From assembly GCA_948470255.1 (NCBI GenBank), contig CAOKOS010000001.1, forward strand, positions 57,382-121,381: 64,000 nucleotides of DNA, written 5' to 3'. A program made the translations under genes and the position numbers. The notes beneath the pieces were generated by a model that was not told where the DNA came from, did not search any database, and saw only the letters and a list, made by a program, of their open reading frames with translations. Shown here piece after piece: positions 7,143 to 63,185 of this stretch (positions within the stretch are counted from its first letter, which is position 1; every line of letters begins with the position of its first letter). Origin of the DNA: an uncultured Lachnotalea sp. Its GTDB lineage: Bacteria > Bacillota > Clostridia > Lachnospirales > Lachnospiraceae.

Positions 7143-9604
7143 AGATATGGAATCAAATAGGAAAACGCCGGATCATTGTTTTTCTGCTGGCATTTGCTGC
7201 CAGTATTAGTATATGGGCTATGCCTATACGAGCGGTGAATGTGTGTATCGTTGTGGAATATGCCCAGGAATACCAGGATGATTCGGCCCAGATATTTTTT
7301 AATACAGGAAGGGGATTTGTACAGGAAGACAGCTGTGCCGCTGATATTGTTGAAAAAAAAGCAGAATTTTTGGTGAACCCAGAGTTTTTTTCCTGTGGAG
7401 AGATTCGTCTGGATCCGGGGAGCCGGGATGAGGTATATCAGCTGAGAGAAATCAGGATATATTCCCAGGTTTTTAAAAATAAAAAGACACTGCTGGCAAA
7501 AATCAGCGCAGAAGAGCTGGATACGCATGGAGTATTGCTGGGGGGGGGTAGAAAGGAAAGCGAAGGTTTCTATGCCATTCAGGATGACGCCATGGATGCT
7601 TCCATCCTCTTTGACGGTTTCCTGACGGGAAAATTCGGAAAGGCAGTACAAAATAACTGGCCGGTGAAAGCCTGCGCACAACTGGGAATCTGTGTTTTAT
7701 GTGTGGTGGCTTTAGCTTGGCTTTCCAGGGGGAAGAAAGCGGCGGGGGCGGCAGGGGCAATATCTGGTATGGTATTGCTGGTGTGTATCCTGGCGATATA
7801 CATTTTTTGCGGGCTTCCCGACAAATATTATATTCATGAAGAGGGACAGATCCAGATGCCAAAAGGCGTGGCCTCTTTTGAAACCGGAAAGAAAAACCTG
7901 GAAGGGATTTCCCTGGAATACGACGATATGGAGGCTTTGCAGGAAATAAATAAAATGCAGGTGTCTTGTAAAACGGGGGAAAAAACTTATACTAAGGATA
8001 TAACCGCATCGTCAATACCAGAAAACGGCGTTGTTACGATACTGTCTGACCAATTTAACACATTTTCGGGCGATACGTTGGAACTGGAGATATTATATGA
8101 CGGCAGAAAGGAAGAGGTGCCAGTTGCCGTTAATCTTTTGTACAGGAATGAGCTGTATCAATGGTTAATTCTCCTGACGTTTCTATGGGGGGCAGGTATG
8201 GCCGTCCTGGCTGTTTTCCATAAACGTTTAAAGTTGAAGGCAAAATGGGCCGTCTGTGGCATCTATATCATGCTTTTTCTATTTGCAGTGGGAAAGCTGT
8301 GGTATTATGGCGCCCATATTGGGCAGGCGCCGGATGAAAAAGCACATGTGGCTTATATCGCCTATCTGGAAGATACGGGAAAGGTGATTCCGCAGTTCGA
8401 TGAAATGAGGCTGTTTACAAAATTGGAACATCCTATTATTTATCAGGGAGGGGAAGAAGTTTACAATTTTGATTCCAGGCTGAATTATTTAGGACACCCG
8501 CCCGCATATTACCATATAATGAGGCTGGCCGGGGGAGTAAAGGTGAATGAGGATGGAAGTATTTTAGCTGACTACGGGAAACTGAGAGGCATGTCTTCTG
8601 CCCTTGTGCTGGCAGCCATGGTAATATGGTTTTATATTGGTTTTCAATACCTGGATAAGCAACACCCTCTTCAGCATTTACTATATGGAGCCAGTCTTGT
8701 CTGTCTGCCGATGACTTGCTTTGTGGGGGCGGGTGTGAATAACGATGCCTTAACTTTTTTAGGAGGAGCTGTGACTGCCGCCGGTATGCTGCGGTTTATA
8801 AAACGAAAAAGGGACTGGAAAACATACTGGCTCATTGCGGCTGGAGTGGCGGCAATGCTCCTGGGAAAAGTGACAGCAGGGGCAATGGTGGTTCTCGCCA
8901 TATGGGGATACTTATTGTGGGAACTTTGGACAAAGCGAAAGCCTAAAGAAATCTTTAAAAAAACATTCTGGCCCACTGTCCCGGTTTATTTATTCATAAT
9001 CCTGTATTTTATATTGGTGTATAAGCAGACAGGAAGTATTCAGCCAAGGTATCAGAGTATTGATTCTGAGGGATACCGGCTTTCAGGCTTTTATACAGAA
9101 TTCGGACAGCGTACAGTATATTCCATGATGGAATATGTAAAATACTTTTTTTCGAGGTTCTTATATATATGGTCTGGCTGGGACACATCAAGTTTCTGCA
9201 TCTATAAAAATACGATAACAGATATTTTGATTTGGCTGGTTCCTACCACACTTTGGCTGGTTCCGCTGACATTATTCAGGAAAAAAGCAGCAATGGATGG
9301 CGGAGAGAAAAAATTCTTCCAGATACTATACGCGGCGGCTATTGCGGTGTGCATGCTGCAATTTAAAAACGCCTATAATGGATTTTATTTTGAGAGCGGA
9401 TATCTGGGAGGCGCCCAGAGCAGATATTATTTATGTATTCTGGGATTTCTTTCTTATATATGGGCCAGAGTAAATATCCTGGCGTCTGAAACGGGACAAA
9501 ATGTAAGGAAATTGGTAACAGCGCTGTCGCTGGCGGCAGTGATTGTTTTAATCTATGGGGATTTTATATATTTCCTTATAAAGAACACAACTTTTTACTG
9601 TTAA
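7133..9604 (+). CDS. DUF2142-like polytopic membrane protein (putative GT-C type)
   Basis: Many TM segments; motif GQAPDEKAHVAYIAYLEDTGKVIP and GHPPAYYHIM; overlaps the upstream gene; contains a 9-G tract. Confidence 0.65.
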   Translation: MFLKIWNQIGKRRIIVFLLAFAASISIWAMPIRAVNVCIVVEYAQEYQDDSAQIFFNTGRGFVQEDSCAADIVEKKAEFLVNPEFFSCGEIRLDPGSRDEVYQLREIRIYSQVFKNKKTLLAKISAEELDTHGVLLGGGRKESEGFYAIQDDAMDASILFDGFLTGKFGKAVQNNWPVKACAQLGICVLCVVALAWLSRGKKAAGAAGAISGMVLLVCILAIYIFCGLPDKYYIHEEGQIQMPKGVASFETGKKNLEGISLEYDDMEALQEINKMQVSCKTGEKTYTKDITASSIPENGVVTILSDQFNTFSGDTLELEILYDGRKEEVPVAVNLLYRNELYQWLILLTFLWGAGMAVLAVFHKRLKLKAKWAVCGIYIMLFLFAVGKLWYYGAHIGQAPDEKAHVAYIAYLEDTGKVIPQFDEMRLFTKLEHPIIYQGGEEVYNFDSRLNYLGHPPAYYHIMRLAGGVKVNEDGSILADYGKLRGMSSALVLAAMVIWFYIGFQYLDKQHPLQHLLYGASLVCLPMTCFVGAGVNNDALTFLGGAVTAAGMLRFIKRKRDWKTYWLIAAGVAAMLLGKVTAGAMVVLAIWGYLLWELWTKRKPKEIFKKTFWPTVPVYLFIILYFILVYKQTGSIQPRYQSIDSEGYRLSGFYTEFGQRTVYSMMEYVKYFFSRFLYIWSGWDTSSFCIYKNTITDILIWLVPTTLWLVPLTLFRKKAAMDGGEKKFFQILYAAAIAVCMLQFKNAYNGFYFESGYLGGAQSRYYLCILGFLSYIWARVNILASETGQNVRKLVTALSLAAVIVLIYGDFIYFLIKNTTFYC
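7540..7548 (+). repeat. Poly-G tract, 9 G, in DUF2142-like gene
   Basis: ttgctGGGGGGGGGtaga, in frame (LLGGGRK). Confidence 0.95.
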
Positions 9605-38020: not shown

Positions 38021-39181
38021 ATGGGATATAAACGGAAGAGAATCTTGTTTTCTGTAATACTGTTTCCGATGTCTGTTCTGGCGGCGTTACTGAGTATGGG
38101 ACTGTTCTTTATGGTCTGTTCCCTCTGGATTTTTTTATGGGCAGAAGATAAATTCAGCAGACGTGAACGCTTACTGTTGCTCATATTTGATATACTTCTT
38201 ATGGTGGAAATTTTTGTGGGGAATGTCCAGTTTGAATTTTTGTCTCAGGCGAAGTCTTTATTGAACATTAATGCGAATCTTTTTTACTGGTTTTCCAGAG
38301 GGCATATGCATGCGGTCAGGCTGCTGGTGGCATATCCGGGTTACTTGCTGAGTTTGTTTGGGAATGTTGGAATAAATGAGGGGTTTACAATTTATGTTGG
38401 GCTGATATTTGAATTGCTGTTTATAGGGGTATGCAGGGTGTTGAAGCTTTATATCCGGGAAATTTGGACTTCTGGTTTCTTGCTTGGCATATTGTTGTTG
38501 GTATTGTCAGTTGCAATGAGCGGCAGGATCGTGTTTGCGTTTCTGGGTCTGTTTATTATCCTTTACCAGGATATATGCCTGATCAGAAAAAAACAGGTTT
38601 CCCTGATATTCAGATGGTTCTGGCTGGGCGTTGGCTTCTTGCTTACTACGGTCAGCAGCGGGACAATGCTTCTTACTTTTGGATATATATTTTTGATGTT
38701 TATCATCCGATACCTGTTTGACTGCTCTGTAAAAGACAGGGTAAGGATTGCTGCTGGGGGAGGGATTGCGTGTGTCATAATGTTCCCTGTATGGAGCAAG
38801 GTGGCCGGTTATATTATAAAAATGTTGAATAAAAATATTTCCTATTTTGGCGGTGGGATAGAAGGCATGGTTAATATGCTGAAGCACGGCATGGGAAGAA
38901 TTATTTATATTGCAGATTCACGTTTTTATTTTATTTATTTTATACTGCTGGCCGGCATTTTGGTTATCAATGTGTTGCTGTTTGTTGAATTGATTATACG
39001 GAGACAATGGGAAAAGTTGCCTTTGTGCCTGGCAGTGAATCTTGGGTTATATGGTTTTTGCGTGGGAATCTCCACGGGTACCATGATGATTCTTCCGCTG
39101 GCGCTGATTATTTTGATTCGTGGAAATGAGAGGAGAGGAGAAGGGAATGTCATATTTAATTGTGGCGGCACACCCGGATGA
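38021..39181 (+). CDS. Polytopic membrane protein, putative O-antigen polymerase (Wzy-like)
   Basis: 386 aa, about 10 TM helices, between Wzz-like and PIG-L genes; no decisive motif. Confidence 0.45.
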   Translation: MGYKRKRILFSVILFPMSVLAALLSMGLFFMVCSLWIFLWAEDKFSRRERLLLLIFDILLMVEIFVGNVQFEFLSQAKSLLNINANLFYWFSRGHMHAVRLLVAYPGYLLSLFGNVGINEGFTIYVGLIFELLFIGVCRVLKLYIREIWTSGFLLGILLLVLSVAMSGRIVFAFLGLFIILYQDICLIRKKQVSLIFRWFWLGVGFLLTTVSSGTMLLTFGYIFLMFIIRYLFDCSVKDRVRIAAGGGIACVIMFPVWSKVAGYIIKMLNKNISYFGGGIEGMVNMLKHGMGRIIYIADSRFYFIYFILLAGILVINVLLFVELIIRRQWEKLPLCLAVNLGLYGFCVGISTGTMMILPLALIILIRGNERRGEGNVIFNCGGTPG

Positions 39182-39827
39182 CGAAGTCCTGGGGGCTGGA
39201 GGGGCAATTCATCATCTTACGCAGATGGATGAGGAAGTAAATGTGTGTATTATGGTGGGGGAAGCGAAAGCAAGAAGTGCAAGGCCGGAAGATGAAGAGT
39301 TAAAGGAAGATATGTATAATGCTATGGAGATATTGGGGGTAAAGAACCGTATTATTGGTGATTTTCCCAATATTGAGATGAATACGGTGCCGCATCTTAA
39401 ATTGGTGCAGTTTATTGAAAAAGCAATTCGTGACACAAAGGCCCGGAAGGTAATCACCCATTTTCCGACGGATTTGAATAACGACCATCTGCATACATCT
39501 TTGGCTTGTCAGGCGGCGGTCAGGCAGTTTCAGAGACGGACTGACGTGGCCCCCTTGGAAGAACTGTGGTATATGGAAGTGCCTTCATCAACAGAATGGG
39601 CATTGAATGATGGTATGGATAAATTTTCCCCGAACCTTTTTGTGGAAATTGGAAAAGAAGGGCTGGAAAAGAAATTGGAGGCTCTTCATTCTTATCAGGG
39701 AGTTATGCGCAGTTATCCGCATCCCAGAAGTGAAGAGGCGATTAGGGGGCTTGCTGCATATAGGGGAGCCCAGTCAGGGTGTAAGTATGCGGAAGCCTTT
39801 ATGTGCGCGTTCAGAAGAATGGTATAA
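39147..39827 (+). CDS. PIG-L/LmbE family deacetylase
   Basis: YLIVAAHPDDEVLGAGGAIHHL; HFPTDLNNDHLHTSLA. Confidence 0.9.
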   Translation: MSYLIVAAHPDDEVLGAGGAIHHLTQMDEEVNVCIMVGEAKARSARPEDEELKEDMYNAMEILGVKNRIIGDFPNIEMNTVPHLKLVQFIEKAIRDTKARKVITHFPTDLNNDHLHTSLACQAAVRQFQRRTDVAPLEELWYMEVPSSTEWALNDGMDKFSPNLFVEIGKEGLEKKLEALHSYQGVMRSYPHPRSEEAIRGLAAYRGAQSGCKYAEAFMCAFRRMV

Positions 39828-39841
39828 AATGGGGGAAGAAT

Positions 39842-40525
39842 ATGATTGTATCCATACATCAGCCAGATTATATTCCATATATGGGGTTTTTTTATAAGGT
39901 TGCAAAGTCGGATAAATTTGTTTTTTTAGATGACTGTCAATTTTCCAATGACAATATGCACCACTGGAACCGGGTCAAGACCCCTCAGGGGGAATGTCGC
40001 CTGAAGGTGCCGGTTGAGCAGCATCTAGGCGATTCAATCTGTGCAGTCCGTACAAGGGATGAGTTGGGGTGGAAAAAGAAGCATTTAAAGACACTTGAAA
40101 TGAATTATAAAAAGGCGGCTTTTTTTGAAGAAGTATTCCCGGAGTTTGAAAAAAAACTGTCAGAATCTTATGCAAGTCTGGCAGAGCAGAATATTGCTAT
40201 AAATACATGGCTGATTCAGCAATTTGGTATAACAACAGAAATCTATATTTCTTCTGAAATGGATATCCATACTGTGAGAGAAGAGCGAGTGCTGGATATC
40301 TGTGAAGAGTTGGGTGCAGACGTATACTTTTCCGGTAACGGGGCAAAAGCATACCAAAAGGAAGAAGACTTCCGGGTACGAAATATAGAGTTGAGATACA
40401 CGGATTTCAGCCCCATGGAATACAGACAGCAATGGGGGGGGTTCGTTCCCAATTTATCAGTTTTGGATTACGTTTTCAACTGCGGTTTTTCGATGGATTT
40501 TATGGAATGTGGGAGTGAAAAATGA
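39842..40525 (+). CDS. WbqC-like family protein
   Basis: IVSIHQPDYIPYMGFFYKVAKSDKFVFLDDCQFSNDNMHHWNRVKTPQG: canonical WbqC N-terminus. Confidence 0.9.
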   Translation: MIVSIHQPDYIPYMGFFYKVAKSDKFVFLDDCQFSNDNMHHWNRVKTPQGECRLKVPVEQHLGDSICAVRTRDELGWKKKHLKTLEMNYKKAAFFEEVFPEFEKKLSESYASLAEQNIAINTWLIQQFGITTEIYISSEMDIHTVREERVLDICEELGADVYFSGNGAKAYQKEEDFRVRNIELRYTDFSPMEYRQQWGGFVPNLSVLDYVFNCGFSMDFMECGSEK

Positions 40526-41304
40526 TAAAATTAATGCTGATATCTGTGGATATAGACAGGGTACAAAAGGCGCAGGAAGCAGGGGTTGACAGGATTTTCA
40601 TTGACTTGGAGAAAAATGGGAAAGCAGAACGGCAGAAAAATCTGAATACTTATGTACCGGGACATACATTTGAAGACATAAAAAAGGTAAGACAGGCGGC
40701 GCCAAATCTTGAAATCTTAGCCAGGGTGAATCCTTATTGGGAAAAAACAGGAGAAGAGATTGAACGCTGCATTGATTATGGCGCAAATATCATTATGCTG
40801 CCCATGTTCAGAAAGTATAGCGAGGTAGAAGCATTTGTACGTCTGGTAGGCGGAAGGGCCGCCACCTGCCTTTTGCTGGAAACCCCGCAGGCCTTCAGCA
40901 GGATAAAAGAGATTCTTGAAATTGAGGGTATTGATGAATTATATATCGGTTTAAATGATTTGAGCCTGGGAATGGGATTGGAGTTTCTATTTGAACCCTT
41001 ATCCGGCGGCCTGGTGGATTTTGTGGCAGGGCTTGCCAAAAGTAAAGGAATTGCTTTTGGATTTGGCGGCCTTGCCAGAATGGGGGCGGGACTGATACCG
41101 GGGGAGGATATCCTGGCAGAGAATTATCGGATTGGGACGGATATGGTCATTTTATCCCAGGCATTTGATGATTCGGAAGATGTGAAGAAGGATATTATGA
41201 AGATCAGGGCAAGAGAACAGGAATTAATGGAATGGACAAAAGCGCAGTTTGACAAAAAACATAAGGAAAATTGCGAAAAGATTTTCCATATAGTAAATGG
41301 ATAA
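40522..41304 (+). CDS. HpcH/HpaI-type aldolase/citrate lyase family protein
   Basis: VDRIFIDLEKNGKAERQ..ILARVNPYWEKTGEEIERCIDYGANIIMLPMF..LLLETPQAF. Confidence 0.75.
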   Translation: MIKLMLISVDIDRVQKAQEAGVDRIFIDLEKNGKAERQKNLNTYVPGHTFEDIKKVRQAAPNLEILARVNPYWEKTGEEIERCIDYGANIIMLPMFRKYSEVEAFVRLVGGRAATCLLLETPQAFSRIKEILEIEGIDELYIGLNDLSLGMGLEFLFEPLSGGLVDFVAGLAKSKGIAFGFGGLARMGAGLIPGEDILAENYRIGTDMVILSQAFDDSEDVKKDIMKIRAREQELMEWTKAQFDKKHKENCEKIFHIVNG

Positions 41305-41314
41305 GGGGAAGGTT

Positions 41315-41887
41315 ATGCTGTACAGAAAGTTTGGAAAACGGTTATGCGACGTGATTTTGTCGGCATTGGGATTGGTGATACTGTCGCCGGCGCTTCTTGG
41401 AATCAGTATTGCCGTTTTGGTTTCAGACGGTATTCCCATTATTTATAAACAAAAAAGAATGGGAAAGGATGGAAAAGCATTTTATATATGTAAATTCCGC
41501 ACCATGGTAAAAAATGCAGATCAAATAGGGCCGCTGTACACTGCAATGTCGGACAGCAGGATTACCAAGACAGGCCGTTTTTTAAGAAAGACCAGTCTGG
41601 ACGAGCTGCCACAGCTATGGAATATTTTAAAAGGCGACATGAGTGTGGTGGGTCCCAGGCCGGGTATTTGGAAAGAATACAGTGAGCTGAATGAAAACCA
41701 GAAAGAACGTCTCTCGATTGTACCGGGGCTTCTTTGTTTGGCAGATGTCAGAGGCAGGAGCCTTTTGAAGCCGGAAGAAAAGATACGGTATGACTTGGAA
41801 TATGTGCGGGGATATTCTTTTTGGAAGGATATCAAGATATGTATCAAAGGAGCCATTGTAGTTTTAAAAAGGGAAGGCGTCAATTAG
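41315..41887 (+). CDS. Initiating phosphoglycosyl transferase (PglC-like, bacterial sugar transferase)
   Basis: GIPIIYKQKRMGKDGKAFYICKFRTMV..RKTSLDELPQLWNILKGDMSVVGPRP. Confidence 0.93.
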   Translation: MLYRKFGKRLCDVILSALGLVILSPALLGISIAVLVSDGIPIIYKQKRMGKDGKAFYICKFRTMVKNADQIGPLYTAMSDSRITKTGRFLRKTSLDELPQLWNILKGDMSVVGPRPGIWKEYSELNENQKERLSIVPGLLCLADVRGRSLLKPEEKIRYDLEYVRGYSFWKDIKICIKGAIVVLKREGVN

Positions 41888-41943: not shown

Positions 41944-42861
41944 ATGGGAGAATACATTGGAGTTATCGGAGGAAGCTCAGGAGACGCATTGACAGAAAAG
42001 CTTCAGGAAAGAGGATATAAGGTAGCGCTGGCAGTTGGAACGGCCGGCGAGCCGGGGACAGACAGGGCTGACCAGTGTTATATTGCAGATTTGCGGGACG
42101 AAAATGCTGTGGTGGAGTTTTTTCAGAAATATCACGTAAAAAAGGTTTTGATCGGGACAGGGCATGAGGTGGTATTTGAGCTGGCAAAGAGGCTGGAAAA
42201 AGAAGGCTTCCTGTTATCCATAAATCTTGCAAAGAGCCTGTTGGCAAAAGATAAAATTGAATTTAAGAAACAGTTGGAAAAGCAGGGGATTTTAACACCT
42301 GCTTATTATGCTGTGGATAAAGAAAGCGATTTTGATATGGAAGAATTGCTATCGCGTGTGGGGCTTCCTTGTGTGATTAAATCTTCAATCGATGCCGTCC
42401 AGCCCAGGAAGGCCAACACGATGGAAGAACTGGAGCAGGCTGTAGGCGAAGTTTTTGCAACGAAAACTTCATTGTTGGCAGAAGAATTTATTGACGGCGG
42501 CGACTGTACTGTTGCTGTCGGGAATAGGGGGGGGGGGTATTTAACGGACTGTGGAGTCACCTTGTACAGCAAAGCGAAAGAGTATGGGTTAGAAGGGTTT
42601 TCCGGCGCGTACGCGGCAGTCCTTACGGAGTCCCAGGCAGAAGAGATCATAGAAGTTGCCAGGAAAGTAGTTCGGGAAAATGAGCTGTTGGGCCTGGTGC
42701 GTGTGGATTTTGTGATAGACGAAAAAATTTATGTATTGGAAGCAAATTCCGTTATGATGGTACAGCCTGGAGTCTCCACATCGCTTTTAAAACAGGCCGG
42801 TTATGATACGGCGGCAATTATGGTGGACAATGCTTTGCAGATTTTTGAGGAGAAAATATAG
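41944..42861 (+). CDS. ATP-grasp family ligase, copy 1
   Basis: LLAEEFIDGGDCTVAV..LVRVDFVIDEKIYVLEANSVM (ATP-grasp core); contains an 11-G tract. Confidence 0.8.
   Translation: MGEYIGVIGGSSGDALTEKLQERGYKVALAVGTAGEPGTDRADQCYIADLRDENAVVEFFQKYHVKKVLIGTGHEVVFELAKRLEKEGFLLSINLAKSLLAKDKIEFKKQLEKQGILTPAYYAVDKESDFDMEELLSRVGLPCVIKSSIDAVQPRKANTMEELEQAVGEVFATKTSLLAEEFIDGGDCTVAVGNRGGGYLTDCGVTLYSKAKEYGLEGFSGAYAAVLTESQAEEIIEVARKVVRENELLGLVRVDFVIDEKIYVLEANSVMMVQPGVSTSLLKQAGYDTAAIMVDNALQIFEEKI
42527..42537 (+). repeat. Poly-G tract, 11 G, in ATP-grasp copy 1
   Basis: aataGGGGGGGGGGGtat, in frame (NRGGGY). Confidence 0.97.
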
Positions 42862-43049
42862 AAATTACCGGATAATCCAGCCATATGAAAAGTCCGCCGC
42901 AGCAAAGCGATATGCTGAATAAAATAAATAGAATGTCAGGTAAAACTGATATTCAGGTGTTTTCTGGTTCCTGTATGGATGATGGGGGATAGATGGAAAA
43001 GTACCGCCTGGAATTGTGCAGAAGATGCAATAATGCGGAGGCGGACGAA

Positions 43050-43976
43050 ATGGCTGAGGAATGGATTGGGTTAATTGGAGGAAAATCAGGTGATTCTTTA
43101 ACAGATAAGCTTCAGGAGAAAGGATATAAAGTAGCGTTGGTGGCAGGAAGAGCCGGGGAGCCGGGAACGGACAGCGCCGACAGGCATTATATTATAGATC
43201 TGCGGGAAGCGGATGCCGTGGCGGATTTTTTTCGGAAATGCCAAGTAAAAAAGGTTTTGGTTGGGACAGGACATGAAGTGGTGTTTGAACTGGCAAAGAA
43301 GTTGGAAGAGGAAGGTTTCGTACTGTCCATAAATCTTGCAACGAGCCTGTTGGCAAAAGATAAAATTGCATTTAAAAAGCAGTTGGAAAAGCAAGGGATT
43401 TTAACGCCTGCCTATTATACCGCGGACAGGGAAAAGGATGTTGACATGAAAAAACTCATTGCCGGCGTGGGGATTCCCTGTGTTATAAAATCGTCTACCG
43501 ACGCCATCCAGCCCAGGAAGGTCAACAGGATGGAAGAATTGGAAGAAGCTGTAAGAGAGGTTTTTGCGACAGGGACATCACTGCTGGCGGAAGAGTTTAT
43601 CGACGGCGGCGACTGTACCGTCGCGGTTGCAAATGACGGAGAGCATTTGATTGATTGTGGGGTTTTGCTATACAGTAAGGCACGGGGTTCCAGATTGAAA
43701 GGATTTCATAACGCAAAGGATGCGGTTCTTTCTGAAGAACAGAAAACAGAAGTTGCAGAAATTGCCAAAAGAGTGGTAGGTGAAAATGGGCTATTGGGTC
43801 TTGCTAGGGTGGATTTTTCCATAAGCGATGAGAACTATGTACTGGAAGCCAATTCTGTGGTAGTTACAGGATATCATGGAAACACATATCCGCGTTATAA
43901 GAAAAATGGAGTTGACCTTGCTGAGATTTTGGTGGAGTATGGGGTGCGGATTCTGGAAAGAAAGAGCGTGGAATGA
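43050..43976 (+). CDS. ATP-grasp family ligase, copy 2 (tandem paralogue)
   Basis: Closely similar to copy 1 over most of its length (GTGHEVVFELAKKLEEEGF.LSINLA.SLLAKDKI.FKKQLEKQGILTPAYY); start chosen after GGAGG. Confidence 0.8.
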   Translation: MAEEWIGLIGGKSGDSLTDKLQEKGYKVALVAGRAGEPGTDSADRHYIIDLREADAVADFFRKCQVKKVLVGTGHEVVFELAKKLEEEGFVLSINLATSLLAKDKIAFKKQLEKQGILTPAYYTADREKDVDMKKLIAGVGIPCVIKSSTDAIQPRKVNRMEELEEAVREVFATGTSLLAEEFIDGGDCTVAVANDGEHLIDCGVLLYSKARGSRLKGFHNAKDAVLSEEQKTEVAEIAKRVVGENGLLGLARVDFSISDENYVLEANSVVVTGYHGNTYPRYKKNGVDLAEILVEYGVRILERKSVE

Positions 43977-46871: not shown

Positions 46872-48047
46872 ATGAGTGACAAATTTATTCCGCTGTCGGT
46901 TCCAAATTTAAAAGGCAATGAGCTTAAATATGTGACAACGGCGGTGGAGACAGAATGGGTTTCCACAGGAGGGCCTTATGTGGCGGAGTTTGAACAGAAA
47001 CTTGCGGATTATGTAAAGGCCAAAGGGGCGGTGGCCTGTCAGAATGGAACTGCAGGACTGCATATTGCATTGCTGCTGGCAGGGGTCACCAGGGAAGATG
47101 CGGTGATTGTGCCGACGCTTACGTTTATTGCGGCAGTCAATCCGGTGAGATATATCGGGGCGGAGCCGATTTTTATGGACTGTGATGATTCGTTGTGCTT
47201 GGATCCAGAAAAACTGGAACGCTTTTGCCGGGAGGAATGTGACATGGCAGACGGCGTATTGACAGAACGTGGGACAGGACGCAGGATACAGGCGATAGTG
47301 GTTGTACACGTTTTTGGCAATATGGCAGATATGGAGCGTATTTTGGAGATAGCGGAGCGATATCATATCTGCGTGGTGGAAGATGCCACGGAAGCCATAG
47401 GCACGTATTATACGGAAGGGAAGTATAAGGGGATGTATGCAGGAACCATGGGGGACGTGGGCGTATATTCCTTTAACGGAAACAAGATCATCACCACCGG
47501 GGGAGGCGGGATGATCGTTTCCAGACATGAGGATTACCTGGCACATGCAAAACAGCTGACGACCCAGGCGAAAAGTGATGAACTGTATTATACCCATGAT
47601 GAAATTGGTTATAATTACCGTATGACCAACCTTCAGGCGGCTCTGGGCCTGGCGCAGCTGGAACAGCTGGAAGACTTTATAAAGGTAAAAGAGCGTAATT
47701 ATACGCTGTACCAGGAAAAATTTAAGGATGTGGAAGGGCTGGAACTGCTATCTTTCCGTGATGGTATCCGCAGCAACAAATGGTTTTATGGCTTAAACTG
47801 TAAAAGTTTTAAAATCGGAAGAGATGAATTGATCCAGTATTTCAGCGAAAACAAAATCCAGACGCGGCCCATATGGGGGCTGATCAGCCGGCAGAAACCA
47901 TATTTAAAAAGCCGGGCTTATGAAATAGAGAAAGCTTTGGAATATTGGAGGTATGTTGTCAATATCCCTTGCAGCACCAATTTGGGGGAAGAAGATGTGG
48001 AAACTGTTGTGGAAGCATTAAAAAAAGCCGGGAAAAGAGAAGGATGA
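46872..48047 (+). CDS. legC: LegC-family PLP-dependent aminotransferase
   Basis: IPLSVPNLKGNELKYVTTAVETEWVSTGGPYV; SFNGNKIITTGGGGMI (PLP lysine). Confidence 0.88.
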   Translation: MSDKFIPLSVPNLKGNELKYVTTAVETEWVSTGGPYVAEFEQKLADYVKAKGAVACQNGTAGLHIALLLAGVTREDAVIVPTLTFIAAVNPVRYIGAEPIFMDCDDSLCLDPEKLERFCREECDMADGVLTERGTGRRIQAIVVVHVFGNMADMERILEIAERYHICVVEDATEAIGTYYTEGKYKGMYAGTMGDVGVYSFNGNKIITTGGGGMIVSRHEDYLAHAKQLTTQAKSDELYYTHDEIGYNYRMTNLQAALGLAQLEQLEDFIKVKERNYTLYQEKFKDVEGLELLSFRDGIRSNKWFYGLNCKSFKIGRDELIQYFSENKIQTRPIWGLISRQKPYLKSRAYEIEKALEYWRYVVNIPCSTNLGEEDVETVVEALKKAGKREG

Positions 48048-49168: not shown

Positions 49169-50707
49169 ATGGAAAAAAAGAGCGGTATTGTAAAATCGAC
49201 GTCGTATGTGATGATTGTTCTGGTTGTTGTAAAGATTATTGGATTTTTGAAACAGGCTGTCATAGCGGCATATTTCGGAACATCCATAGATATGGACTTG
49301 TATCTGATTGCTTCTGATTTTATTACAGAGGTGGGAACTGTCTTCTTTTCTTCTTTGTCTGTAAACTTTCTGACCATGTTTGTACAGCTTCTGGTAAAGA
49401 AGGGGAAAAAAGAAGCAGATGTTTTGCTGTCCAATACATTGATTTTTTTTATCCCGGTGGCGGTTGCCATTATTATGGTCATCTGGATATTTACCGATCC
49501 GATCTCGGCTTTGATTGCTTCCGGTTATGGCGCAGCCCAACGGAAGATTGTGGGAAAATATATCCGTATTGTTTCTATTGTTATAATCAATATCTGCATC
49601 AGCAATATCTGCACGGCGGTCTTAGAGGGAGAAAAAATATTCCTTCCCGGGAAATTTGTGGGAATTATACAAAGCGTCTGTCTGGTGATTGCCTGTGTCG
49701 GCTTTTCAGGACAGCATGGTATTTATTCTATCCTTTACGGTATCATTGCATATTACATTATTCAGAATATTTTTCTTTTATATTTTGTATTTCGTGACAA
49801 TAAGTTTTGCGTGAGGCAATTCTGGAAAGATAAAAGAGTGGTGGAGCTGGTGAAGCTGTGCCTGCCGCTTTTTATCAGCAATGCAGTGGTACAGATTAAT
49901 ATTATTGTAGATAAATCCATTGCCTCCCATTTGGAATCGGGAAGCGTTGCCGCTTTGTCGTATTCCAACTTTTTGTTTCAGGCAGTCCATTCCATCGTAA
50001 TAGGAAGCTTGTGTACAGTGGTTTTTTCTTATTTTTCCACTTATGTGGCGACGAAGGAACATAATAAAATTGTTGATATTCTCAGGAAAGGGACGGCAGA
50101 TCTGCTTTTGCTGCTTTTGCCGCTGTCTGTGGTATTTCTTGTCAATGCGGAAACCATTGTACGCGTGATATATGCAAGAGGGGCTTTCGACGAAAAATCT
50201 GTCACGGCAACTACATACGCATTTATCGGATATACAATAGGGATTATTTTTGTAACCGTGAGGGACTTGTTGGTGAGGGCGCATTATGCATTCCAGGATA
50301 CAAAAAGGCCTATGCTGAATGGTATGTTGGGTGTGGTGATTAATATTGTACTGAGCGCTATCCTGGCAAACTATGTGGGGGTATTTGGAATTGCCGTTGC
50401 AGACAGCGTATCATATTTTGTGGTTTTGCTGCTGGCGATGAAAACCATCAAAAAGCATTTGAATAATTATAAATTATTCGGAGGCTGGGAAGTACCTTTA
50501 AAGATGGCGGTTGCTGCTATTTTGAGCGCATTTGCGGGAATCGCAGTAAAGCAATGTGTATATGGGCTGGGAGACATTTTGTGTGGGGCGCTGAATGGGG
50601 CGGCTACAGTGCTGGTGTTTTTTGGCATTTTATTGTGTACAAGATGTTCAGCAGCGTTGGAGTTATGGAGTATGTTAAAAAGGAAATTTGGAAAAAAATC
50701 TGCCTGA
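49169..50707 (+). CDS. MurJ/Wzx-like lipid-linked oligosaccharide flippase
   Basis: About 14 TM helices; KIIGFLKQAVIAAYFGTSIDMDLYLIASDF typical of the MviN family. Confidence 0.85.
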   Translation: MEKKSGIVKSTSYVMIVLVVVKIIGFLKQAVIAAYFGTSIDMDLYLIASDFITEVGTVFFSSLSVNFLTMFVQLLVKKGKKEADVLLSNTLIFFIPVAVAIIMVIWIFTDPISALIASGYGAAQRKIVGKYIRIVSIVIINICISNICTAVLEGEKIFLPGKFVGIIQSVCLVIACVGFSGQHGIYSILYGIIAYYIIQNIFLLYFVFRDNKFCVRQFWKDKRVVELVKLCLPLFISNAVVQINIIVDKSIASHLESGSVAALSYSNFLFQAVHSIVIGSLCTVVFSYFSTYVATKEHNKIVDILRKGTADLLLLLLPLSVVFLVNAETIVRVIYARGAFDEKSVTATTYAFIGYTIGIIFVTVRDLLVRAHYAFQDTKRPMLNGMLGVVINIVLSAILANYVGVFGIAVADSVSYFVVLLLAMKTIKKHLNNYKLFGGWEVPLKMAVAAILSAFAGIAVKQCVYGLGDILCGALNGAATVLVFFGILLCTRCSAALELWSMLKRKFGKKSA

Positions 50708-51981: not shown

Positions 51982-52632
51982 ATGAACAACGATATTGTGC
52001 TGATTGGTTTCGGAGGACATGCGAAAAGTGTCATTGATAGTATAGAAAAAAGACGTGATTATCATATTATTGGATATACAGATCTTGTACCTCATGAGGA
52101 ATATAAGGGTTATCCATATCTTGGAAGCGACGATACCTTACAGGAATGTTATGAAAAAGGGGTGAGGTATGCATTTGTTGCCATTGGATATATGGGAGAG
52201 GGAAGACTGCGGGATTTACTATATCAGAAGTTAAAGAAAATAGGATTCCAGATTCCTTTTATTATCGACCCTTCTGCTGTCCTGGCAGATGACGTAAAGA
52301 TAGGGGAAGGGACTTTCATCGGGAAAGGAAGCATTGTCAATGGGGCTTCAGAGATTGGAAACATGTGTATTATTAATACCGGAGCTGTCATAGAACACGA
52401 AAACCAGATCGGAGATTTTACACATGTATCTGTGAATAGTACTCTATGCGGAAATGTTTCTGTGGGTTCCCACTGTTTCATAGGGGCAAATGCGACAATT
52501 ATTCAAAATATCAAGATCGGACAGGAAAGCCTGGTGGGAGCGGGAAGCACGGTTCTCAGGGATGTTTTGCCCAACGAAACCGTATATGGGATCGTAAAAA
52601 ATCAGGAGAAGGGGATAAGGATTGAAGGATGA
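51982..52632 (+). CDS. NeuD/PglD/LegH-like hexapeptide acetyltransferase
   Basis: IVLIGFGGHAKSVIDSIE..; hexapeptide repeats IGEGTFIGKGSIVNGASEIGNMCIINTGAVIEHENQIGDF. Confidence 0.88.
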   Translation: MNNDIVLIGFGGHAKSVIDSIEKRRDYHIIGYTDLVPHEEYKGYPYLGSDDTLQECYEKGVRYAFVAIGYMGEGRLRDLLYQKLKKIGFQIPFIIDPSAVLADDVKIGEGTFIGKGSIVNGASEIGNMCIINTGAVIEHENQIGDFTHVSVNSTLCGNVSVGSHCFIGANATIIQNIKIGQESLVGAGSTVLRDVLPNETVYGIVKNQEKGIRIEG

Positions 52633-53627
52633 AGAAAATTTATATTATTGCTGAAGCTGGAGTGAATCATAACGGCAGCCTTGAACTGGCAAAGAAAATG
52701 GTGGCTGCTGCTAAAGCGGCGGGGGCAGATGCAATTAAATTTCAAACGTTTTCGGCCGAAAGCCTTGTGACAAAAGGAGCAAAGAAAGCCCAGTATCAGA
52801 AAAACACTACGGACTGTGGGGAAAGCCAATATGATATGCTTAAAAAACTGGAGTTGTCTTATGAAGACCACTGTGAATTGAAAGCGCTGTGCGAAGCTTC
52901 CAACATTGATTTTATGTCCACCCCTTTTGATCTTCCAAGTCTTGGGTTACTGGAAAAGTTAGGGGTCGCAAGCTATAAGATTCCTTCCGGGGAAATAACG
53001 AATTATCCTCTTTTAAGGGAGATAGGCAGGACAGGAAAAAAGGTGATCCTATCGTCGGGAATGAGTTCCCTTAAAGAAGTGGGGGAGGCCGTTGGAACAT
53101 TGAGAAAATGGGGAAGCGGAGAGATCACTGTGCTTCACTGTAATACGGAATATCCGACGCCATACGAAGATGTGAATTTGAAGGCCATGGAGGCTTTAAA
53201 AAAGGAGCTTGGGACTGCCGTGGGATATTCAGACCACACACAGGGGATAGAGGTTCCTGTGGCGGCGGCGGCGCTCGGGGCGTCTGTCATTGAGAAACAC
53301 TTTACTCTGGACAGAAATATGGAGGGACCGGATCACAGAGCCAGCTTGGAACCAGGGGAACTGCAGGAAATGGTGAGAGCAGTCAGGAACATTGAAATGG
53401 CGTTGGGGAACGGGAAAAAAGAACCGTCAGAGTCAGAGATAAAGAACATTGGTATTGTAAGGAAAAGTATTGTGGCAAAATGTGAAATACAGCAGGGGGA
53501 AGTATTTACAGAAGAAAACCTTACCACAAAAAGGCCGGGAACCGGAATATCACCTATGAAATGGAATGAAATCCTGGGACAGAAGGCAAAGAAAAATTTT
53601 CATATGGATGAGTTGGTTGAATTATGA
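52629..53627 (+). CDS. legI: N,N'-diacetyllegionaminate synthase (NeuB family)
   Basis: IIAEAGVNHNGSLELAKKMVAAAKAAGADAIKFQTF; C-terminal SAF domain. Confidence 0.9.
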   Translation: MKKIYIIAEAGVNHNGSLELAKKMVAAAKAAGADAIKFQTFSAESLVTKGAKKAQYQKNTTDCGESQYDMLKKLELSYEDHCELKALCEASNIDFMSTPFDLPSLGLLEKLGVASYKIPSGEITNYPLLREIGRTGKKVILSSGMSSLKEVGEAVGTLRKWGSGEITVLHCNTEYPTPYEDVNLKAMEALKKELGTAVGYSDHTQGIEVPVAAAALGASVIEKHFTLDRNMEGPDHRASLEPGELQEMVRAVRNIEMALGNGKKEPSESEIKNIGIVRKSIVAKCEIQQGEVFTEENLTTKRPGTGISPMKWNEILGQKAKKNFHMDELVEL

Positions 53628-54793
53628 AGAAGATATGTGTGATTACAGGTACACGGGCGGAATACGGGTTACTGAAGCCCCTGATTGATAAAATATACAG
53701 GATACCTGCCTGGGAGCTGCAGTTGGTTGTGACAGGTATGCATTTGTCCCCGGAATTTGGGCTGACCTATGGCGCCATTGAAGAAGACGGTTATCCGATT
53801 AAGACTAAAATAGAGATGCTGTTAAGTTCGGATACGTCTGTGGGAATCACAAAATCAATGGGAGTGGCTCTGATTGGTTTTGCAGATTGTTTTGCTGAGA
53901 ATAAGCCGGACATCGTTATTATTTTAGGGGATCGGTATGAGATGCTTGTGGCAGCGCAGGCAGCAATGGTTGCCAAAATTCCCATAGCTCATATTCATGG
54001 AGGCGAACTGACAGAAGGGGCAATGGATGAAGCCATCCGACATTCCATAACAAAAATGAGCCATCTTCATTTTACTTCTACAGAAGAGTACAGGAACAGA
54101 GTCATCCAGCTGGGGGAACAGCCCCGGTCGGTGTATAATGTCGGCGCATTAGGGGTTGAAAATATAAAAACAATAAAACTTCTGGGGAAAGAAGAATTGG
54201 AGAAAGAGCTGGATTTCCGTTTTTCATCCAGGACGCTTATGGTGACGTATCATCCGGTTACGCTGGAGAATATGACTTCCAAAGTGCAGTTTAAAAATCT
54301 TCTGGATGTGATTGAAGAGAGGAAAGATCTGTCAGTGATTTTCACGAAAGCTAATTCTGACCCGGATGGAAGGATCATTAACCAGATGATGGATGAATTC
54401 GCGGCTGACCACAGGGAAAGGTGTGCTGTATATACTTCCCTTGGCCAGCTTAGATATTTCAGCGCCCTGCAGTTTTGCGCCGCAGTGGCTGGAAATTCTT
54501 CCAGCGGTATTCTGGAGGCGCCTTCTTTTGGAATTCCCACCGTAAACATAGGCGACAGGCAAAAAGGAAGAGTCCACGGAGAAACAGTGATCGACTGCGG
54601 CAATGATAAGAGGCAGATTATCTTGGCTTTGGAAAAGGCATTGTCACCAGAATTTAAAGCCGGACTCTCTAAAGCGAAAAATCCCTATGAGGGGGAGCGT
54701 ACATCGGATAGAATCCTTGAAATCATCAGTAAGGCATTGCGGGATGGCATTGATATGAAAAAAAGGTTCTATGATATAGTTGTGAAACAATAA
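53624..54793 (+). CDS. legG: Hydrolysing sugar-nucleotide 2-epimerase (NeuC/LegG)
   Basis: CVITGTRAEYGLLKPLIDKI..GGELTEGAMDEAIRHSITKMSHLHF. Confidence 0.9.
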   Translation: MKKICVITGTRAEYGLLKPLIDKIYRIPAWELQLVVTGMHLSPEFGLTYGAIEEDGYPIKTKIEMLLSSDTSVGITKSMGVALIGFADCFAENKPDIVIILGDRYEMLVAAQAAMVAKIPIAHIHGGELTEGAMDEAIRHSITKMSHLHFTSTEEYRNRVIQLGEQPRSVYNVGALGVENIKTIKLLGKEELEKELDFRFSSRTLMVTYHPVTLENMTSKVQFKNLLDVIEERKDLSVIFTKANSDPDGRIINQMMDEFAADHRERCAVYTSLGQLRYFSALQFCAAVAGNSSSGILEAPSFGIPTVNIGDRQKGRVHGETVIDCGNDKRQIILALEKALSPEFKAGLSKAKNPYEGERTSDRILEIISKALRDGIDMKKRFYDIVVKQ

Positions 54794-54855: not shown

Positions 54856-55539
54856 ATGGGAAATCTTGCAATTATTCCGGCAAGGTGCGGTTCCAAAGGG
54901 CTTCCTGACAAAAATATTAAATTACTGAACGGCAAGCCTTTGTTGGCTTATGCCATAGAGGCGGCTCTGCGGTCGGATGTGTTTGAGGAAGTGATGGTTT
55001 CGACAGATTCATCAGGCTATGGGGAAATTGCAAAACAGTGGGGGGCTTCCGTGCCGTTTTTGAGAAGTGAAGAAACCTCTTCCGACAGCGCCAGTTCCTG
55101 GGACATGGTCCGGGAGGTGCTTAAGCGCTACGACAGGATGGACAGGCATTTTGAGTCCTTTTGCCTTTTGCAGCCCACATCCCCTCTGAGGACTTCGCGG
55201 GATATCATAGAGGCATACCGGATTTTTGAGGAGAAAAAGGCAGTGTCGGTGGTGTCGGTCTGCGAGGTGGATCACTCCCCTTTGTGGTGTAATACGTTAA
55301 ACGAGGAAAATTCCCTGGAGGATTTTCTGGAGAGAGGGGGCGGCGCCCCCAGACAGGCGCTTGACACGTATTACCGCATCAACGGCGCGATTTATATTGC
55401 CGATATCGAAGAATTTTATAAGGATACATTTTTGTACAGGAAAGGCAGCTATGCTTATATTATGGATAGAAAAAGCAGCATTGATATAGACTGCGAGCTG
55501 GACTTCCTGTTGGCAGAGCTTTTATTAAATAATCTGTGA
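54856..55539 (+). CDS. legF: CMP-N,N'-diacetyllegionaminic acid synthase (NeuA family)
   Basis: AIIPARCGSKGLPDKNIKLLNGKPLLAYAIEAAL; QPTSPLRTSRDI. Confidence 0.9.
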   Translation: MGNLAIIPARCGSKGLPDKNIKLLNGKPLLAYAIEAALRSDVFEEVMVSTDSSGYGEIAKQWGASVPFLRSEETSSDSASSWDMVREVLKRYDRMDRHFESFCLLQPTSPLRTSRDIIEAYRIFEEKKAVSVVSVCEVDHSPLWCNTLNEENSLEDFLERGGGAPRQALDTYYRINGAIYIADIEEFYKDTFLYRKGSYAYIMDRKSSIDIDCELDFLLAELLLNNL

Positions 55540-60683: not shown

Positions 60684-61139
60684 ATGCCAGAAAATGTGTC
60701 GAATGAGAAAAAAAGATGTTCCCGGGATACTTTATGCCAGTTCATGAAATTTGGAATTGTCGGAGTTAGCAATACCGTCATTTCTTATGTATTGAATGTT
60801 ATGGTTTTAAAATGGATGGAGCCGTTGGCGGTTTCGTGGGATTATATTGTTGGAAATATCGTGGGTTTTGTAATCAGTGTGGCTTGGTCTTTTTACTGGA
60901 ACAGCCGATTTGTGTTTAAGGCGAAGAGGAAAGGCGCACGGCGGACATTGCAGGGGCTTTTAAAAGCGTATATGGCATATGGCTTCACGGGTGTAATTTT
61001 AAATAATGTCCTGTCTGGAATCATGATTCATGTCTGGGGCATTTCAAAATATATTGCTCCATTGCTGAATTTAATCGTAAGTGTCCCTCTTAATTTTGTC
61101 ATTAATAAATACTGGACGTTTAAGGCTGTAAAGATGTGA
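60684..61139 (+). CDS. GtrA-family membrane protein
   Basis: FMKFGIVGVSNTVISYVLN..NIVGFVISVAWSFYWNSRFVFK; 4 TM. Confidence 0.88.
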   Translation: MPENVSNEKKRCSRDTLCQFMKFGIVGVSNTVISYVLNVMVLKWMEPLAVSWDYIVGNIVGFVISVAWSFYWNSRFVFKAKRKGARRTLQGLLKAYMAYGFTGVILNNVLSGIMIHVWGISKYIAPLLNLIVSVPLNFVINKYWTFKAVKM

Positions 61140-61159
61140 GGAGAAAAGGAAAAGCAGTT

Positions 61160-63185
61160 ATGGAACATTCTAAAAAAACATTTTATATAGCATTTATGTC
61201 CGGTATAGGTGTAGCATTTGGATTTCTTTATGCTATTTTAGGAAATGCTGCAGATGAATATACAGGAATTGTGAAGTGGATATATTCTAATAATATAAAA
61301 ATATATCTTGTTTTTTTGTTGGTATTTGCAATGGTATTTTTAATGGTTCGTGGCATAGATAAACTGTTTTTTGCCAAAGTAGATGGACTTGTAAAAAGAA
61401 CCTGCCGTTTGGAGGGGGTCTGGCAAAGCGTTGGGGTTTTTAGCTTATCTATGTTAGGGGTTGGCATTTTTGCCCACTGGGGACTGGTGGGACAGTTTAA
61501 AGAAATAGGTGTTGCAAACGGGACATATTATGATTTTCCCTGGCTTTTCCAAGCTTTTTTGATGGGGGCAGTTTTTTTGTGGATAACCTGTATTGTGATA
61601 AGAGATAAAGATATTACCAAAGAAACATGGTATGTTATTTGTGCCGTTTCATTGTTGGTAACGTTTATGGGCTTGTACATTGTGAATCCATTTAGCTCTG
61701 TGCATAGAACGGATGCCTTTTCTATGGGGATGCAAGATAATACCAGTGTCACAGAAACCATATATAATGTTTTGGATGGGGTTCCATTCACTTATACGAC
61801 TTCGGGGATTTATGGACATTATGCCTTGTTTTTTCTACCGTTCCTCAAATTGTTAAAAATTTGTCCGGGGGGGGGGCGGCATACCATATGGAGTTATGGG
61901 GATGCTGGCGTTTTTCGGATGTTTAGCACAGCTGGCTGTGATTTATGCAGTTGATGTCTTTTGTAAAAAGAACTGGCTGAAAGCAGTGCTCGTATCGGCG
62001 GCTGTTGTCCGCACCACTTATACTTATCCGGCAGTTTCACCTGTTCGCACTTTATTTCCTTTGTTGCTTTGTGCTTATATGGTATTTTTGTATAAGAATC
62101 AGAAAGAAGTATGGGGAAACAGATGGATGTGGATGGGTTTTCTTTTATGTTCAGGGGCGGTTTTATGGAATACGGAGACGGGACTTGCATGTATTGCGGG
62201 GTTTGTTTTTTACATATTAGTTGAACAATGGCAGAGGCGCTCCGTGTTTGGAAAAGGGATGTCGGTTCTCTATTTCTCTGTATTTGCAGCTTCTTTGGGA
62301 TGCGTGTGTTTGGCAGTTGTTGTGCTAAATATTTATAATTGGGTTTGCGGGTATCCAAATCTGGTATTTCGCGTATTTTTTTATCCATACATAAACAGTT
62401 CTTTTGCAACAGAAGGGATACGATGTAATCTTCCCCTTGGGAATCACGCATGGGTTTATATTATAATTTTGTTGCTGGGGGCTGCTAGCTGGGCTATATA
62501 CCATACATACCTCTGGAAAAGGCGCACGGAGTACATGGAGGAGGCTCCGGTTCTGGCAGGGATTGCCATGATTGGGATTGTCGCCTTTGCATATTATGCA
62601 AATGAGGCTCATTGGGGATGTATGGAAATCGTACACCAGATTGCCATTATCGTTTCTGCTGTCATTCTTTCAAAATTGTGGCATGTACTTGGAAGATGGA
62701 AAGAATATAACCATGTAGAACATATATTTCAGAAAGCTGTGGTGGTCGTTGCCGTTGCCATCTATTCAACCCTTGCCGTGGCGGGAGCATTGGGTGATCC
62801 GGTTCGTATATCTGCCAGAAACCGTGCGGGCGCTTACAGCCTTGCCGAGGTAAAGGCAGATTTGGAAACGTTGCGCAAAGAGATACCGGAAAATACATAT
62901 GGAGTAGGGTTGGGAATTAATACGGCGTATTGTATGCTGCAATGGGATAATCATGCAAAGCTGCGGGATACCTCGGCTGTCTCCATAAATGCTTCGGGAA
63001 AGGGAAATGCATTTACAGAATTGAGAGATGAGATTTTGTGCCAGGACAGTTTTTTAATCGAGAGCAAATACAGCTGGGATCAGGATTTGCTGGGGGCGGT
63101 ATTAAAAAGGGACGATACATATGTCTTAAGAAAAACTGTCAGTATCGGCGGGGTGGAATACGGTTATTACGTGCGGGAGAAATGA
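61160..63185 (+). pseudogene. Polytopic membrane protein (putative GT-C/polymerase) split by a frameshift at a 10-G tract; probable phase-off gene
   Basis: ORF 61136-61954 and ORF 61896-63185 join in frame as ..KICPGGGGIPYGVMGMLAFFGCLAQ.. if one G is removed from the 61867-61876 tract. Confidence 0.8.
61867..61876 (+). repeat. Poly-G tract, 10 G
   Basis: ccGGGGGGGGGGcggc at the exact frameshift point. Confidence 0.97.

Follow-up and report, generated by a model that had tools for sequence, protein, structure and literature searches.

A probable poly-G contingency tract in one of two tandem ATP-grasp ligase genes of a Lachnospiraceae surface polysaccharide region

Poly-G tracts make several glycan genes of Campylobacter jejuni phase-variable, such as cgtB, the flagellar glycosylation genes maf1 and cj1295, and the cj1421c/cj1422c MeOPN capsule transferases (PMC8355987, PMC6437147). 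In this organism, genes for the attachment of non-essential sugars or substituents to surface glycans, legionaminic-acid glycans included, change reading frame with the length of their G run (PMC8355987, PMC6437147). Phase variation in Clostridia is known chiefly through a different route, DNA inversion. The flagellar switch and pdcB/pdcC of C. difficile have been described in these terms (PMC8890394, PMC11868660). Homopolymeric tracts of A or T are also found in prokaryotic genes, with Listeria inlA and B. subtilis swrA as examples (PMC2831843).

The locus described here lies in a window of 64,000 nucleotides (the whole stretch of DNA that was analysed) from an uncultured Lachnotalea sp. of the family Lachnospiraceae, and it consists of two tandem ATP-grasp genes, the first of which contains a run of 11 G. 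As in C. jejuni, frame switching by a G run is proposed for a putative surface-glycan gene, the length variation being deduced here from one assembly. The phylum is another one, however, and the switched gene would be an ATP-grasp ligase accompanied by an unswitched tandem paralogue. The inversion systems of C. difficile are comparable in that surface or signalling genes are heterogeneously expressed in Clostridia, but these switches use site-specific recombinases, whereas homopolymer slippage is proposed here. The inlA and swrA genes provide a precedent for homopolymer frameshift switching in Firmicutes, although their tracts are made of A or T and sit near the gene starts, in contrast to the present G tracts, which are also found deep inside the gene. 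The mechanism is thus known, but its use in Lachnospiraceae is seemingly undescribed: no description of poly-G switching in this family was found in the literature searched, which was covered in part.

The run, of exactly 11 G, extends from 42527 to 42537 on the forward strand and is internal to the open reading frame of ATP-grasp copy 1 (41944-42861, forward strand), which encodes a ligase-like protein of 305 residues. Copy 2 follows on the same strand at 43050-43976. Its frame is open from 42993, but the likely start is at 43050 (MAEEWIGLIGG), which gives a protein of 308 residues. The frame of copy 1 is intact across the run (...TVAV-GNRGGGYLTDCGV..., which reads NRGGGYLTD), and the gene is therefore ON at 11 G. 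At the aligned place, copy 2 has aatgacggagagcatttg (AN-DGEHLID), without any G run. The sequence-only reading, according to which the tract belongs to copy 1, is absent from copy 2 and leaves copy 1 ON in this assembly, was exact to the base on these points. The consequences of a change in length were then derived by simulation. Copy 1 stays in frame with 8, 11 or 14 G. With 10 or 13 G, a stop codon is met two codons past the run, and the product has 199-200 residues, while at 9 or 12 G translation continues out of frame, to a product of about 246 residues. The part lost on frameshift (42538-42858, forward strand) contains D255, E266 and N268 as well as a divergent C-terminal loop, QPGVSTSLL, and copy 1 produced from 9, 10, 12 or 13 G should be inactive. 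The earlier suggestion that a slip would truncate copy 1 and leave copy 2 untouched is borne out by the simulated out-of-frame lengths, which lose the predicted metal/ATP-ligand part. Two properties of contingency loci are thus found together, namely a mononucleotide run of hypermutable length within a coding region, and a gene that a one-base change in the simulation turns off through loss of its ligands, some lengths being compatible with the ON state.

ATP-grasp domains are recognized in both copies (Pfam, above cut-off). The predicted structure of copy 1 (pLDDT 92.8, pTM 0.89) matches those of PurK, a bacterial L-amino-acid ligase and D-Ala-D-Ala ligases (Foldseek, E about 1e-16), and both its fold and its domain signature are those of the ATP-grasp superfamily. 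By score it falls outside the D-alanine--D-alanine ligase family, with 62.4 bits for TIGR01205 and a cut-off of 245.65, and both copies lie far under the D-Ala-D-Ala ligase cut-offs. The fold, the ATP-grasp domains of Pfam and the conservation of metal ligands are common to the copies and to PurK, D-Ala-D-Ala ligase and the bacterial L-amino-acid ligase, but the copies differ from these carboxylate-amine ligases by an identity of about 14-21%, under the NCBIfam cut-offs, and by their presence in polysaccharide loci, beside an aldolase-like protein and an initiating sugar transferase.

The G run codes for most of R195-G196-G197-G198. In the predicted structure, residues 195-199 form the turn of a beta-hairpin, between strands 186-194 and 200-206. 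This turn shows no indel in ten homologues and one additional residue in copy 1, as seen in an alignment of 11 proteins. Since 8 G would restore the common turn length, the tract probably grew by three bases in the past. D255, E266 and N268, all of them C-terminal of the run, are invariant in the 11 homologues. We take their positions to be like those of the Mg ligands of ATP-grasp enzymes, and they are thus predicted to be Mg/ATP ligands. No relative was found among the genome contigs searched when the two copies alone were used as queries. A profile search based on six sequences gave nine good homologues, and the same-genus genomes contain distant ATP-grasp matches only. None of the homologues examined has a G run at the aligned place, and the tract appears therefore to be specific to copy 1. 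Another strain's version of it was also sought in viral contigs, and none was found there.

Polysaccharide and nonulosonate genes are found on all sides of copy 1, all those located here being on the forward strand. A PIG-L-type sugar deacetylase (39120-39827), an HpcH/HpaI aldolase-like protein (40522-41304) and a Bac_transf initiating sugar transferase (41297-41887) precede it. The last two families recur beside ATP-grasp homologues elsewhere: in nine homologous loci, Bac_transf and HpcH_HpaI each gave seven matches close to the ATP-grasp gene. Further along the window lie a LegC-family aminotransferase (46872-48047, TIGR04181 over the NCBIfam cut-off), a MurJ/Wzx-type flippase (49169-50707), a NeuB/NnaB-type nonulosonate synthase (52629-53627, TIGR03569 over cut-off), a NeuC/NnaA-type UDP-GlcNAc 2-epimerase (53624-54793, TIGR03568 over cut-off) and a cytidylyltransferase for CMP-sugar activation (54856-55539, CTP_transf_3); WbqC is also among the genes around the ATP-grasp pair. 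The LegC aminotransferase, NeuB-type synthase, NeuC-type epimerase and CMP transferase together make up the gene set of a legionaminic/sialic-acid-type nonulosonate locus, and the region is, as predicted from its gene content, a legionaminic-acid-type surface polysaccharide locus. Our provisional guess is that the ligase couples an amino sugar with an acid, which the aldolase-like protein may supply.

A second tract is present in the same region. A run of 10 G (61867-61876, forward strand) divides a gene for a polytopic membrane protein into an N-terminal half (61136-61954), whose frame ends through the frameshift just past the run, and a C-terminal half (61896-63185), which is read in a different frame of the same strand. 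These two stretches match, in order, the N- and C-terminal parts of a homologue that forms one open reading frame of about 650-700 residues in six other Lachnospiraceae genomes. Since the gene is continuous in six relatives and split here at 10 G, it reads OFF, and the run may be a second switch, in its OFF phase.

Exact runs of 11 G were found in 41 of 299 Lachnospiraceae genomes. Their surroundings were examined for most of the runs away from contig ends, and the frame test required at least 300 nt open on both sides. By this test, the frames on the two sides differ for 11 of 14 runs of 11 G, compared with 42 of 539 runs of 4-6 G in the same DNA. Selected switches would be expected to produce such a family-wide frame-breaking pattern. 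The OFF state is seen at the 10-G tract of the region and at most of the family tracts, that is at tracts other than 42527-42537. The genes concerned, many of them coding for surface components, include several Acyl_transf_3 O-acyltransferases, BspA-like LRR and SHIRT surface proteins and SipW-type biofilm-matrix-like proteins, as well as MFS transporters, a LysR regulator and an EAL/GGDEF protein. In genome G206, the gene of a WbuX-type N-acetyl-sugar amidotransferase (L147:4735-5946, on G206:C60) is interrupted in its early part by an 11-G run, and the same 22-kb contig also carries two linked ATP-grasp homologues. Genome G119 has two 11-G runs on a contig of 3.83 Mb, both frame-breaking. 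The sequence context of these runs is also peculiar: TA directly follows 23 of 58 runs of 11 G (40%), as against about 5.5% of short runs (binomial 1e-14), and 7 of 13 runs of 12 G, the latter having been sought with A or T as the second base.

How far chance alone could account for the tract has been estimated in several ways. No internal G run of the 2.5-Mb assembly is longer than the 11-G run, and the 10-G run of the same window comes second. Pattern searches of the genome gave 67, 22, 5, 1 and 1 runs of 7, 8, 9, 10 and 11 G, respectively, the 7-G count being derived from overlapping counts and the 51-G end of contig C42 being excluded. A geometric tail fitted to these counts predicts 0.67 runs of at least 11 G, and when the codons of the window genes are shuffled synonymously, at least one run of 11 G arises in 12% of the shuffles, so that the length of the run is not significant by itself. 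Among the glycine codons of the window, GGG ranks second in frequency (509 of 1563). A run of 9 G, at 7540-7548, is in frame in the gene of an 832-residue DUF2142-type membrane protein; when it was considered as a shared tract, no run was found at this place in the orthologues from three same-genus genomes. The fitted tail, the shuffles, the codon usage and this in-frame 9-G run would fit an ordinary, neutral run that perhaps mutates slightly faster but is no selected switch, placed in a turn that tolerates glycine and in a genome that makes use of GGG. Against this stand the clustering of runs, which is significant (six of at least 8 G observed in the window for 0.74 expected; Poisson 1e-4, or 9e-4 without the reported 11-G run), the neighbour gene that a 10-G run splits and the family excess of frame-breaking 11-G runs, and we consider a purely neutral origin rather unlikely. 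Tract lengths may also be mis-called, the assembly being a draft in 87 contigs and perhaps a metagenome bin. Copy 1 might then have a run of another length than 11 G, and the gene with the 10-G run might in truth be intact. One contig of this draft ends with 51 G (G000:C42:25063-25113), which is typical of two-colour chemistry and is probably an artefact of this sequencing method. Both runs of the window are internal, however, with good coding sequence on either side, copy 1 is in frame, and the pair of runs on the long contig of the relative G119 is frame-breaking too; errors of sequencing or assembly are thus an improbable source of the observed lengths.

Comparison of the two copies brings in another possible origin of the tract. 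They are 66% identical, and the pair (41944-43976) looks mosaic, with similar 5' two thirds, a far more diverged 3' third and a step just before the run. After residue 188, a few codons ahead of the run, nucleotide identity falls from 0.78 to 0.58 (permutation p 2e-4), and third-position identity from 0.64 to 0.39 (permutation p 6e-4). The drop in protein identity is strongest past residue 270, with 29% identity over the final 35 residues. Probably, either recombination has homogenised the two genes in their 5' parts or one of them has had its 3' part replaced. The run could thus be a by-product of a recombination junction between tandem copies, with no switch involved. Such a junction would leave the other runs of the region and the family pattern unexplained, and mosaicism is compatible with switching; as a full account of the tract it appears quite unlikely. 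The VTG motif is found in 10 of 11 homologues and is retained in copy 2 as VTGYHG. Copy 1 is the one exception, with QPGVSTSLL, which presumably resembles the acceptor loop of D-Ala-D-Ala ligases. Given this divergence near the run and in the C-terminal loop, it is plausible that the two copies use different substrates. The values of dN (0.23) and dS (1.34) between them indicate purifying constraint on both. Decay of copy 1 into a pseudogene was also considered, but was rejected as the lead because dN is well under dS, although the family motif is missing from the C-terminal loop of this copy. Lastly, long homopolymers can cause polymerase or ribosome slippage, and one allele with the G run could in this way produce both full-length and truncated protein, the length of the DNA tract mattering little. 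The gene split at 61867 would then need slippage constantly, which makes this explanation very improbable.

Phase variation appears to be the best reading of the whole context, given the position of the run in a turn, its frame consequences, the split neighbour gene, the clustering of runs and the family excess of frame-breaking. The 11-G run is thus probably a contingency tract, whose switching in length we infer from a single assembly. The run, its frame consequences, its place in a turn, the split neighbour and the frame-breaking pattern in relatives are read directly from sequence, whereas actual length changes, enzyme chemistry, substrate difference and glycan effect are deductions, and the mechanism proposed is the following. 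Slipped-strand mispairing at replication would alter the length of the tract. Copy 1 would be kept in frame by 8, 11 or 14 G and would end before the metal-binding strands at other lengths, while copy 2, without a run, would remain on whatever the tract length. Both enzymes would probably join a carboxylic acid to a sugar amino group, or make a precursor, and through a slip one decoration would be altered or lost, the backbone machinery staying in place. The membrane-protein gene of the same region would be in the OFF phase at its 10-G run. The sequence-only reading had considered a possible two-state choice of substituent. The switchable frame on which this idea depends is retained, but two states look too narrow, since 8, 11 and 14 G are all ON and at least one further gene of the region appears independently switchable.

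More tentatively, long G runs could form a family-wide phase-variation system in Lachnospiraceae, located in surface and glycan-modification genes and in -35/-10 promoter spacers, with a run-then-TA context common to many; in the ATP-grasp pair, the switch would then choose between two forms of a decorating ligase, one from a divergent, mosaic gene and one from a constant gene. If the switching is real, surface decorations vary from cell to cell in a common gut commensal, with a bearing on phage resistance, immune recognition and the strain-level reading of metagenomes. Genes in the OFF phase would also be miscalled as pseudogenes in annotation and in metagenomes.

Elsewhere in the genome studied here, a run of 9 G (L204, G000:C24:4440-4448) lies between open stretches of 512 and 177 codons, which are in different frames. 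Among the 11-G runs of the family, three intergenic ones (L193, L194 and L196) sit between TTGACA-like and -10-like (TATAAT-like) boxes, with a spacing of 19-20 bp. Such a location would be as in promoter-spacer phase variation. The same placement in a TTGACA/TATAAT spacer was recognized by eye for the 11-G runs of L149 and L158.
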